Virus record (IMG/VR): IMGVR_UViG_3300037346_000461
Coordinates: 1-23,996 of that record
Source: a virus
Length of the DNA stretch: 23,996 nt
Reading direction: 5' to 3' (one strand)
Under the pieces are notes generated by a model, which saw only the letters and a program-made list of their open reading frames with translations, had not been told where the DNA came from and ran no database searches. This document shows positions 8,919 to 23,996 of the stretch, piece by piece (positions within the stretch are counted from its first letter, which is position 1; each line of letters begins with the position of its first letter). The translations under genes were made by a program, and so were the position numbers.

Positions 8919-9371
8919 ATGCCAGAATTAAATCATGATTGGGTGAAGGCCCAGCTGGAAGCAAAAAAAGTTAAAGTAGGGTCTGGAAAAGCAATCCTTA
9001 AACTATTAAGCACTTGGGAAGAGATCCCGTCGTTATCACCTGCAATACTAAAAGAAGTGTTGGAAATTTTTCCGAAACTAGTTATGGGAGAGCCACTAGT
9101 AGAAGACGAAGCTGACGATGATTATTACTGGGTAGATCTACAGCCCGGAAATATAACAGTTGGTGATGTTGTCATTGTTAAAAATGATGCTTTCCAGGAA
9201 AAACTCGGAACAATACACAACGGGCGTCGCGGAACTGTAGTTGGTGTTAGATACGGTGACGTAATCTTTAGTGACACTGATGGCAAGACTCCACCGCTTA
9301 AGGGCGTTCATTACTCACCGTATAAGCTACAAAAACGACTAAGAAAGGCTAAGCCATCTAATGAGAGCTAG
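8919..9371 (+). CDS. Hypothetical protein with C-terminal SH3/KOW-like region
   Basis: This 150-residue protein starts directly after the glycosyltransferase stop and is preceded by GAAAGGA. The N-terminal half (1-60) is helical. An acidic stretch VEDEADDD links it to residues 80-117, GDVVIVKNDAF, then HNGRRGTVVGVRYGDV. That is the repeated beta-strand and Gly-turn pattern of small SH3/KOW barrels. The tail is basic (KLQKRLRKAK). A nucleic-acid- or protein-binding role is possible, but no family is recognised. Confidence 0.6.
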   Translation: MPELNHDWVKAQLEAKKVKVGSGKAILKLLSTWEEIPSLSPAILKEVLEIFPKLVMGEPLVEDEADDDYYWVDLQPGNITVGDVVIVKNDAFQEKLGTIHNGRRGTVVGVRYGDVIFSDTDGKTPPLKGVHYSPYKLQKRLRKAKPSNES

Positions 9372-9609
9372 TTTTGAACTTAAAATTCTTTCACCTAATT
9401 TAACTGAAGCCGCGCAGAAAGCCTATTCTCATATGGCAGCATTTATTGGCTGTAACCCATCAGAAGTTTTGGACCGGGCAGAAGTAGAGCTTAAGGTTAA
9501 AACAATTAACACTGGTGACGACAAAAAACCTAACTGGTCTGAGGCTACTGATATGTATGAAGTAACCGTATACGGCACATTGAAGCAAAGCGTACTACGT
9601 CCAACATAA
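9361..9609 (+). CDS. Small hypothetical protein
   Basis: This 82-residue protein overlaps the previous gene by 11 bases. It has a helical first half and a beta-rich end (EVELKVKTINTG, MYEVTVYGTLK). No motif, signal peptide or membrane segment is visible and no family is recognised. The coding call rests on overlap packing and a normal composition. Confidence 0.55.
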   Translation: MRASFELKILSPNLTEAAQKAYSHMAAFIGCNPSEVLDRAEVELKVKTINTGDDKKPNWSEATDMYEVTVYGTLKQSVLRPT

Positions 9610-9645
9610 AGTGTAATGTACGGTAGGGCTCTGCCAACTTGCGTT

Positions 9646-9651
9646 TAGAAT
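9646..9651 (+). promoter_or_regulatory. Putative -10 element for a leaderless transcript
   Basis: TAGAAT fits the actinobacterial TAnnnT -10 and lies six bases before ATG 9658, so transcription would start at the A of the start codon. There is no Shine-Dalgarno before this ATG. The gap 9610-9657 is the only non-coding stretch in this part of the plus strand. No convincing -35 is seen. Confidence 0.4.
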
Positions 9652-9657
9652 AATACT

Positions 9658-10005
9658 ATGAAAGATTCGCGAATTGGAGAGTCCCTCTGGTCTCTTTGGG
9701 ACGGCCTGGGTTATACCCCCGAGCTAAACTCTTCAATAGTCTACTACACCGAAGGGCACGTAGATATAGAGCATGAGCTTGTTAGAAAAGCTTTGGCATC
9801 TTCCATACAAAGAGACGGTATTGTCTATTCGCTATTTGAAGCTTACAACTCCATAGATCGGGGTCGCGCTTCTTGTGTTTGGGCTGGTTTAGCTAATGAT
9901 GAAATATATCAAGAAGTTTGCAATGAGATCGGCGTGACTGATTCTGGCGCTGAAGTACTTGAATTGGTCCCAATTACTTTTGTAGAGGTTCCAGATCTTG
10001 TTTGA
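9658..10005 (+). CDS. Hypothetical protein upstream of WhiB
   Basis: This 115-residue acidic protein of no recognised family contains Trp-rich SLWSLWDGLGY near the N-terminus and a helical middle. It lacks a ribosome-binding site but follows a TAGAAT box, suggesting a leaderless message. It overlaps the WhiB gene by eight bases, so the two are probably made together and could be functionally linked. Confidence 0.6.
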   Translation: MKDSRIGESLWSLWDGLGYTPELNSSIVYYTEGHVDIEHELVRKALASSIQRDGIVYSLFEAYNSIDRGRASCVWAGLANDEIYQEVCNEIGVTDSGAEVLELVPITFVEVPDLV

Positions 10006-10474
10006 CCCTCAGAGTTGGCACGAAGAGGCCGAATGCGCTAAGCCAAAAAACGCTGAATTTATTGACAACTTTTTTGCAAATAAACCCGCTCAGCAGTATC
10101 AAGCAAAAAAACTTTGCGGTGGGTGCCCTGTTAAAAAAGAGTGTGCTCAGTGGGCTCTAAATGAGAAACAACTGTGGGGTATTTGGGGGGGCTTAGACTA
10201 TAAAGAAATTAGGAGAACTCTTTCGGTTAATTGGGATGGCCAGGAAATGCGTCATAAGCGCTTTCCTTTATGCCCGGGTTGCAAGTCAAAAACTTCGCAC
10301 TTAGAGACCTCTACTATAGATAGACCTGATGGTGGGCGCTGGTCAACAATGCGTATAGTGACATGCACAAAATGTAAGTTTACTTGGCAAAGTAGGACTA
10401 GTGCCAATGCTGTTGATGCATATTTTGCACTAAAAACTAAGAAGCAACAGCAGCGCGATAATAAATTAGATTAG
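9998..10474 (+). CDS. WhiB-like Fe-S transcription factor with C-terminal zinc ribbon
   Basis: The 158-residue protein starts at TTG, nine bases after AGAGG (9984-9988). The WhiB core has C13, C40, C43 and C49, the C...CxxCx5C set that binds a [4Fe-4S] cluster, followed by the G61-I-W-G-G65 turn of the family. WhiB proteins bind the primary sigma factor or DNA in Actinobacteria, and phage copies can block host functions. Beyond the core, C92-P-G-C95 and C123-T-K-C126 form a second four-cysteine set resembling a zinc ribbon, and the tail is basic and Gln-rich. This extra domain is unusual for phage WhiB proteins, which are typically about 80-120 residues. The 3' end overlaps the opposing glycosyltransferase gene by 38 bases. 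Confidence 0.88.
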   Translation: MFDPQSWHEEAECAKPKNAEFIDNFFANKPAQQYQAKKLCGGCPVKKECAQWALNEKQLWGIWGGLDYKEIRRTLSVNWDGQEMRHKRFPLCPGCKSKTSHLETSTIDRPDGGRWSTMRIVTCTKCKFTWQSRTSANAVDAYFALKTKKQQQRDNKLD

Positions 10475-17895: not shown

Positions 17896-18951
17896 TTATA
17901 TCTGAATCCAAACATCCCCTGTTTGTGGTGATGTAGGTTGAACTCCTACAAATAGTTTTCTATGGACCGATGCAGTGGTATAGAAAACAAAACCAGAAGG
18001 CATACTAACTGTTTGACTAGCGCCATCATATGCTATCGGTAAAGACGCAACAACAACTCCCTGCGCTCCGCTGTTTCCTGTTAGACCCGTTGGTCCAGTT
18101 ATACCGGTTGGACCTGTTGGCCCAACGTTTCCTGTTGCACCTGTAGCGCCTGTTGGTCCAGTTGGTCCGGTTGCTCCAGTAGGTCCGGTTGGTCCGGTTG
18201 GACCGGTTTCACCTTTTATACCTTGCAAAGCAGAAAGACTTATTTTTGGGTTTGACAGAGAAGATAGAGTTCCACCCGTTTGATTATAAAAAATAGTAAT
18301 TGATGCTTCTAGCCCTGTAATAGAAAATATTGTTCCGTCTGCAAAAAGTTCAGGATCCGAGTTAGAGATAATTCTTACAGTAGATCCTACTATTATTGCT
18401 CCAACTTTATTTAAATTTCCAGTTAGAGTTACGCCAGTAAATCCAACTATCGATAAAGTTATTCCATCATATCCAATTCCAGCAGTACCAGTTGCACCCT
18501 GCGGTCCAGTTGGACCTGTTGGTCCAACAACTGTAGAGTCAAAACCCCTCTGTCCAGTTGCTCCAGTTGGACCTGTTGGTCCTCTAATTGGTCCAATATT
18601 TTGCCACGCTGTCCCAGCCCAGACGTGTAAGTCATCTCCAATAACATATGCATCGCCAATAGTATTTCCACTGGTTGGTAATAGTCCAGTATTAGCTAAA
18701 GTCCCAAGGATTGTAACCCCCGACCCGTCAAGTCCTGGAGCGCCAGTTGGCCCCGTTGGCCCATCAAAACCAATAGATCCGGTGGGTCCCGTTGGGCCTG
18801 GAACCACTGATTGAGCTCCTGTTGGTCCTTGAGGTCCTACAGATATAGCGCCAAAAAGCTCCCAGACTACACCATTCCAAATCCAAGATTTCTCTGATGC
18901 TATAAATTTTTGCCCTACTGAGGGGGAATCTGGAAAATTTAACGGAGCCAT
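17896..18951 (-). CDS. Collagen-like tail fibre protein
   Basis: The 351-residue protein has an N-terminal module [13 protein letters not shown], then [12 protein letters not shown] (1-34). Short Gly-X-Y blocks rich in GPT follow at about 39-77 and 124-160. Between them sits a globular insert with [12 protein letters not shown] (109-120). A second beta-rich insert (161-242), a longer Gly-X-Y block (244-298) and a C-terminal domain ending [11 protein letters not shown] complete it. Collagen-like triple helices are common rigid shafts in phage fibres. The start overlaps neither neighbour, and it follows the 999-residue gene by two bases. It is probably a trimeric fibre. Confidence 0.88.

Positions 18952-21937: not shown

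Positions 21938-21953
<16 letters not shown>
18954..21953 (-). CDS. Large virion structural protein (T4-like cyanophage type), baseplate or fibre
   Basis: The 999-residue protein opens with [19 protein letters not shown] (37-55). It later has [11 protein letters not shown] (321-331) and [19 protein letters not shown] (345-363). I recall very similar motifs from large structural proteins of T4-like cyanophages (sometimes labelled VrlC), but could not search. At least three beta-sandwich repeats share the pattern HG-x-x-x-G...I-x-x-x-x...G-x-(Y/W)-x-V-x-x-(V/I)...F-x-V (about 107-155, 250-300, 380-430). The Ser/Thr-rich C-terminal part may form a fibre-like or carbohydrate-binding end. The gene overlaps the 590-residue collagen gene by 16 bases. 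Large size and repeats suggest a baseplate wedge or fibre-anchoring protein. Confidence 0.7.
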
Positions 21954-23709
<1,756 letters not shown>

Positions 23710-23710
<1 letters not shown>

Positions 23711-23996
23711 TATGGTGTTCCTCCATCAAGAGAACTAACATTGACCCAAGTTGATATATCAGAATCATATGCAAGAAGGTCTCCGCCTTGTAAGTTTGTA
23801 AAAGATACATTTTCAAAATCATCTAAAGTTATTGTACTTACGTCTAGTTCTGGACCGGTTGGCCCGGTCGGCCCGGTCGGTCCTTGAGGTGCTGTAGCAA
23901 CTTGCACCCATTGAGAGCTAGTACCGTCTGGTATATAGACATACATTTTACCAGTCTCAACGTCGTACCAGACTTGACCATCTTCTGGGCTAGATG
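23710..23996 (-). CDS. Collagen-like fibre protein, C-terminal part (partial, N-terminus outside window)
   Basis: The frame is open to the right edge of the window. Upstream of the internal ATG (23946) it continues as [16 protein letters not shown], then MYVYIPDG and QWVQVA. That is the same P-x-x-G-x-x-W...Y-x-Y...W module seen at the ends of the other fibres, so the ATG is not the real start. A short [11 protein letters not shown] collagen stretch follows, then an acidic C-terminal segment ending in SSLDGGTP. The stop overlaps the ATG of the 590-residue fibre gene (TAATG), placing it upstream in the same operon. It is probably a fibre or adaptor subunit. Confidence 0.75.

Follow-up and report, generated by a model that had tools for sequence, protein, structure and literature searches.

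The gene at positions 9998–10474 of IMG/VR virus record IMGVR_UViG_3300037346_000461 (we analysed positions 1 to 23,996 of the record, a stretch of 23,996 nucleotides hereafter called the window) raises the question of what a phage WhiB-like (Wbl) protein does with a second set of four cysteines behind its WhiB domain. A preliminary description of the locus had read a full WhiB cysteine set and a GIWGG turn in this gene, and the translation indeed gives C13, C40, C43 and C49 with GIWGG at residues 61–65; it had also read a second four-cysteine set with zinc-ribbon spacing and a basic tail, which we find as C92/C95 and C123/C126 followed by a K/R/Q-rich tail. The start region is common to the gene and its relatives, one of which starts with ATG. 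The gene and its parts are laid out as follows:

9998–10474, plus strand: Wbl–zinc ribbon fusion (ribbon-WhiB for short), whole gene, 158 residues, TTG start, stop codon at 10472–10474
10016–10216, plus strand: Wbl core, residues 7–73, with the predicted Fe–S cysteines C13/C40/C43/C49, the turn G61-I-W-G-G65 and the aromatics W7/F25/F26/W63, placed by PF02467 and the alignment with WhiB1 (6ono)
10217–10267, plus strand: conserved junction, residues 74–90, consensus TLSVNxxGQExRxKRFP, 61% mean pairwise identity
10268–10390, plus strand: putative zinc ribbon, residues 91–131, with C92/C95 and C123/C126 (CxxC-27-CxxC), hairpin PxGGRW and a third strand at about W130
10394–10468, plus strand: C-terminal helix, residues 133–157 (AlphaFold2), opening with the invariant R133 and N137 and ending in a variable basic tail

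The product belongs to the Wbl family. Residues 7–73 match the Pfam WhiB family PF02467 (E 1.8e-17, 64 bits against a curated cut-off of 23.6), the four Wbl cysteines (C-x2-C-x5-C plus a distal Cys) are present in 117 of 117 homologues, and the G[IV]W[GA]G turn carries tryptophan at position 63 in 88% of the subfamily and arginine in 12%. Residues 6–77 match WhiB1, WhiB3 and WhiB7 in Foldseek and VIA comparisons (WhiB1 6ono: Z 11.7, rmsd 1.1, 67 aligned), and among proteins of solved structure those closest in sequence are WhiB1 and WhiB7 of M. tuberculosis and the Streptomyces WhiB seen in promoter complexes. The aromatics of the sigma interface are also kept: in the alignment of 117 sequences W7 stands at 100%, F25 at 90% (the rest W), F26 at 94% (the rest Y) and W63 at 88%, these positions being equated with WhiB1 W3, F17, F18 and W60 by motif position and by the structural and sequence matches to solved Wbl proteins. 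In WhiB3, residues F31, F32 and W76 (WhiB1 F17, F18 and W60) are required for sigma-A4 binding (PMC10245118). Given the fold and the conserved contact residues F25, F26 and W63, the Wbl domain probably docks on sigma-A region 4. The exchange of W63 for arginine, seen in about 12% of the weighted homologues, includes the Microbacterium phages, so the canonical sigma contact would be weaker in that branch. The sigma partner might, moreover, not always be the host's, since many of these phages may have a sigma-like protein of their own: in 17 of 25 records of ribbon-WhiB phages there is a gene for a protein of about 190–230 residues with a weak sigma-70 region-4-like match, six of them above the cut-off (for example NC_073468.1, 17643–18224; the Pumpernickel annotation gives helix-turn-helix only).

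The C-terminal half almost certainly folds as a genuine ribbon. AlphaFold2, run on a 62-sequence alignment, returned a model of the fusion with a mean pLDDT of 90.5 and a pTM of 0.80, in which the Wbl-core helices reach up to residues 68–75 and are followed by strands at 102–108, 117–123 and 129–131 and a helix at 133–157; the two CxxC knuckles sit on a three-stranded sheet (AlphaFold2 strands; Foldseek matches 1qyp and 7ae5). The best Foldseek match of this half is RPB9 (1qyp, probability 0.97, E 0.13), with VdcD of vanillic acid decarboxylase (7ae5) also matched, and zinc-ribbon subunits of eukaryotic RNA polymerases match it at Z 2.7–3.4 in VIA. The four cysteines would form a putative zinc site, the identity of the metal being a prediction. 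At the level of profiles, NCBIfam VdcD (NF041205) is matched by 56 of the 62 members (best E 9.5e-6) and Lar (TIGR03655) weakly by 17 of the 62 relatives (best 3.3e-4). The window protein itself falls outside the curated families, with 16.9 bits against a cut-off of 30 for VdcD, no match at E <= 0.1 to Lar (TIGR03655, PF14354) and 10.4 bits against a cut-off of 21 for the TFIIS ribbon (PF01096); a Pfam search of the C-terminal half gave weak sub-threshold matches alone (DUF7351, TFIIS, FdhE). We take the VdcD and Lar matches to reflect a common class of ribbon, without membership of either family: what the window ribbon has in common with those of VdcD/BsdD, Lar, RPB9 and TFIIS is the CxxC-CxxC three-stranded ribbon, whereas it stays below the curated cut-offs, is fused to a Wbl domain and is followed by a basic helix.

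The same fusion occurs in many other phages. In tblastn searches of named phages, full-length relatives were found in Actinomycetia phage DSL-LC01 (50% identity), in Microbacterium phages Pumpernickel, Zooman, Big4, A3Wally and Cece (34–46%) and in Arthrobacter phages Racecar, Talia1610, Mimi and Atuin (28–31%), and IMG/VR holds full-length homologues in well over 100 contigs. Two partial matches were set aside, that of Mycobacterium phage Peanam being an ordinary short WhiB and that of Gordonia phage Eggsie spanning annotated genes. Contig scans of 84,980 prokaryote species genomes yielded no relatives of the fusion, and the WhiBs present in 72,556 plasmids included none covering at least 80% of the query.

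The alignment comprises 117 distinct homologues, equivalent to about 51 effective sequences at 80% identity, the most remote sharing about 27% identity with the window protein. None of them departs from any of the eight cysteines, nor from L102, W130, R133 and N137 in the C-terminal half. The count of 117 out of 117 is partly circular, because many of the IMG/VR homologues were fetched by ribbon-derived patterns; free of this bias are the full-length tblastn matches in named phages and a census that counted Pfam WhiB domains in 25 phage records. That census found a long WhiB in all 25 records and one or two further WhiBs in 15 of them. The long WhiBs that we inspected have exactly four extra cysteines after the core and the inspected short ones have none, which agrees with the earlier remark that phage WhiBs are mostly little beyond the cluster domain. 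Many of these phages encode the long form side by side with ribbon-less WhiBs, and we take the ribbon as the sign of a separate role. Pairwise identity averages 51% in the Wbl core, 61% in the junction (residues 74–90), 57% in the ribbon plus helix and 21% in the tail; with the ribbon slightly more conserved than the core, and the junction most of all, the ribbon is not a decaying tail. Consistent with this, comparison of the window with its nearest relatives gave dS from about 1.7 to saturated and dN of 0.03–0.17 in core, linker and ribbon, and such high dS and low dN across all three parts point to purifying selection on the whole protein. The preliminary reading of a Wbl domain joined to a C-terminal zinc ribbon is thereby borne out by conservation, AlphaFold2 and Foldseek alike: where it had allowed for unconserved cysteines or the lack of a metal-binding fold, the cysteines are kept throughout and a ribbon fold is matched. 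As a separate observation, the Arthrobacter-type ribbon-WhiBs L177, L014 and L015 lack the PxGGRW hairpin insert, and the small ORF preceding them has no clear similarity to the partner gene described below.

In GenBank these phage genes are labelled plainly as WhiB family transcription factors, and it is chiefly the WhiB part of the fusion that its PHROGs families cover. A survey of actinophage WhiBs describes the replication-gene context of whiB in Microbacterium phage cluster EK, and the word zinc is absent from its text (PMC8612146); our literature search found no description of a WhiB–zinc ribbon fusion. The ribbon-WhiBs are a real, phage-specific Wbl subfamily of actinobacteria phages, apparently undescribed so far.

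The gene has an upstream neighbour that is nearly as constant as the gene itself; neither this partner nor the promoter box ahead of it figured in the preliminary description. Ahead of it in the window lie, in order:

9361–9609, plus strand: preceding small gene, 82 residues, its stop 2 nt before the box
9612–9624, plus strand: conserved 13-bp box TGTAATGTACGGT (consensus TGTAATYTACGGT), upstream of the partner gene
9646–9651, plus strand: -10-like hexamer TAGAAT in a leaderless arrangement, separated by 21 nt from the box and by 6 nt from the ATG
9658–10005, plus strand: partner gene, 115 residues, directly upstream of whiB and overlapping its start by 8 nt

An ORF of 95–140 codons directly upstream, ending at or near the ribbon-WhiB start, is present at 116 of 117 loci, the exception being cut by the contig end. 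Most of these ORFs are homologous to the window partner in phmmer searches; at the Arthrobacter-type loci the upstream ORF is present without clear similarity to it, and at one soil-type locus (L100) the test caught a different neighbouring gene. Among named phages, the searches made found relatives of the partner only in those with a ribbon-WhiB. The AlphaFold2 model of the partner has a pLDDT of 89.7, and W11, W14, L46 and G54 are invariant. Against Pfam, NCBIfam, PHROGs and PDB sequences it had no match worth naming, its sequence search gave nothing but viral proteins that are unnamed or uncharacterized, all at E >= 0.01, and comparison of its model with PDB folds gave none above Z 4.0 and no close match to a known DNA-binding domain. 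The cassette closes a replication/recombination module, as genes for a DNA polymerase, a helicase, an exonuclease, a Sak4-like and an SSB-like protein precede it in the window, and the annotated gene order of the Microbacterium phages is similar across module and cassette. Further along, the window has collagen-like genes full of GPTGPTG repeats on the minus strand (17896–18951 and 21938–23994), and in DSL-LC01 (L009) collagen-annotated genes likewise come after the WhiB region.

The box with its leaderless promoter (9610–9657 in the window) is typical of a freshwater clade. Its half-sites alternate as GTAA-T-TTAC-G-GTAA, the last of them not intact in the window, and TGTARTNTACGGT has one perfect match in the whole window, the box at 9612–9624. 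Among 80 dereplicated upstream sequences, 24 have an exact box, seven have one mismatch and five have two (36 of 80 at two or fewer), against no exact box and 0.16 expected at two mismatches in shuffled upstreams; the count of 36 is descriptive only, because these very upstreams were the ones from which the motif had been chosen by eye. Of 44 upstreams with a box, 41 have a TAnnnT placed 6–9 nt ahead of the start codon. Independent support for the box is its single exact copy genome-wide: 16 of 20 whole records searched have a single exact box, and in the six records in which the whiB position was known from the Pfam census an exact box stands ahead of the cassette in all six. When the viral collection was scanned with the exact 15-mer, a ribbon-WhiB lay downstream in 23 of 83 fetched stretches, a further 49 stretches had no box, -10 and start-codon arrangement, and 11 ended too soon to tell. 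The distance from box to -10 is 20–21 bp at 23 loci or 30–33 bp at 25 loci, and it has changed twice on the protein tree; two spacings about one helical turn apart would suit a bound protein that has to face RNA polymerase. A box regulon sought in the window, in whole phage records and in the viral collection was not found, and two-mismatch matches in whole records are about as common as with a backward-read control. A single box per genome suits autoregulation and gives no sign of a wider regulon. In Microbacterium/Arthrobacter and soil-type loci with the same protein architecture the box was sought and is absent. A different conserved string, TTAGAGACACTTT or TAGAGACACTTT, is shared by several soil-type loci (L113, L115, L122, L131, L148, L163 and L175), where it precedes the partner gene by about 100 nt.

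How might these parts work together? We propose that the subfamily acts as a self-contained, promoter-specific transcription regulator, autoregulated in one clade, an account that in its full form we hold to be evenly balanced between right and wrong. First, the Wbl domain would hold a [4Fe-4S] cluster and dock on host sigma-A region 4 as WhiB1, WhiB3 and WhiB7 do. Second, the ribbon and its basic helix would replace the AT-hook or basic tail of cellular Wbl proteins and touch either promoter DNA just upstream of the -35 or the surface of RNA polymerase, conferring a specificity for which canonical Wbl proteins depend on partners such as WhiA, or which they do without. Third, the overlapping two-gene cassette would yield WhiB together with the conserved 115-residue partner, as co-factor or antagonist. 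Fourth, the freshwater-clade leaderless promoter, with TGTAATYTACGGT at two spacings, would be an autoregulatory operator. The preliminary description had suggested that the ribbon could bind DNA or RNA polymerase and the protein redirect host sigma factor. We find this plausible in view of the retained sigma-contact aromatics (W7, F25, F26 and W63) and of the conserved promoter box ahead of the cassette. Taken singly, contact of the ribbon with promoter DNA is somewhat favoured, and for binding of the box by the ribbon-WhiB, or by its complex with the partner, we stop a little short of an even judgement. More tentative is the most specific version, a phage-invented, self-sufficient Wbl activator that, bound to sigma-A4, reads TGTAATYTACGGT with its ribbon upstream of the -35, governs the leaderless operon from which it is expressed and has its activity adjusted by the 115-residue partner translated with it; such a sigma-appropriation switch would be comparable in logic to T4 MotA/AsiA. 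Several points count against the preferred account. Microbacterium/Arthrobacter and soil-type loci share the protein architecture but lack the box; the box motif was chosen by eye, and its single copy per genome reveals no wider regulon; W63 is replaced by arginine in part of the family; the partner or another regulator could read the box; and VdcD and Lar, the closest ribbon profiles, are not known to be DNA-binding transcription factors.

The rival readings together keep half of the weight. It is possible, though unlikely, that the ribbon docks on RNA polymerase (its beta or beta' subunit) and not on DNA, in the manner of RPB9 or phage RNA polymerase-binding proteins, so that host polymerase is appropriated or inhibited and the box is read by something else. 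RPB9 is after all the best C-terminal structural match (1qyp), ribbons of RPB9, RPA12 and TFIIS fill much of the Foldseek list, and the box is missing in about half of the family though the ribbon is invariant. However, VIA Z values of merely 2.7–3.4, for small ribbons that look alike, reflect a shared fold that shows no function, and the basic C-terminal helix fits nucleic acid contact at least equally well.

Alternatively, the box could serve as operator for the partner, or for some other regulator of phage or host, with WhiB acting on host promoters only (for example in whiB2 shutdown, as TM4 WhiB does) and the ribbon merely stabilizing the fold. The partner is nearly as constant as WhiB, there is one box per genome with no sign of a regulon, and WhiB of phage TM4 represses host whiB2 (Rybniker 2010, as cited in PMC8612146 and PMC13148394). 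Yet a ribbon and junction more conserved than the Wbl core would be odd for a passive stabilizer, and no known DNA-binding domain was closely matched by the model of the partner; we consider this reading distinctly unlikely. The idea that an anti-restriction or enzyme-accessory ribbon of Lar or VdcD type was fused to WhiB by chance, leaving two unrelated functions, can draw on the NF041205 and TIGR03655 matches given above but is highly improbable, given the sub-threshold VdcD score of the window protein, the lack of a decarboxylase gene seen nearby, a search of phages that found no ribbon free of WhiB at a significant E-value, and a tightly conserved junction that implies one working unit.

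The preferred account, that of a self-contained regulator, has its nearest parallel in WhiB7 (WblC), with which the ribbon-WhiB shares the Wbl fold and, as proposed here, sigma-A region 4 docking and a C-terminal DNA-contacting element just upstream of the -35. In WhiB7 a short AT-hook reads AT-rich DNA (PMC6282962), whereas the ribbon-WhiB has a folded four-cysteine ribbon plus helix. The closest solved sequence match is Streptomyces WhiB with WhiA (8dy7, 8dy9; phmmer E 8.7e-11), a Wbl protein at a promoter with sigma, as is proposed for the ribbon-WhiB; there specificity comes from the separate WhiA, while the ribbon-WhiB may carry a fused DNA- or RNA polymerase-binding module. WhiB of mycobacteriophage TM4 and other phage WhiBs share the phage-borne Wbl domain, but the ordinary phage WhiBs inspected (a comparison that does not include TM4) have no cysteines after the core. 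Fusion of a Wbl domain to another transcription module has been reported (PMC6282962), in that case, going by its description, with a different partner domain.

How Wbl proteins find their promoters is a long-standing problem: WhiB7 alone has a recognised DNA-binding motif, and other Wbl proteins seem to need partners (PMC6282962). Here a Wbl domain comes fused to a second metal domain and accompanied by a constant partner gene and a candidate operator, so that the question of specificity can be put directly to two small proteins and a short promoter. In phages of the abundant freshwater actinobacteria, whiB genes have so far served mainly as host markers (PMC6802176, PMC10202952). Judged from its sequence, the ribbon-WhiB looks like a self-contained tool for steering host RNA polymerase, and it offers a handle on how freshwater actinobacteria phages may control host transcription.
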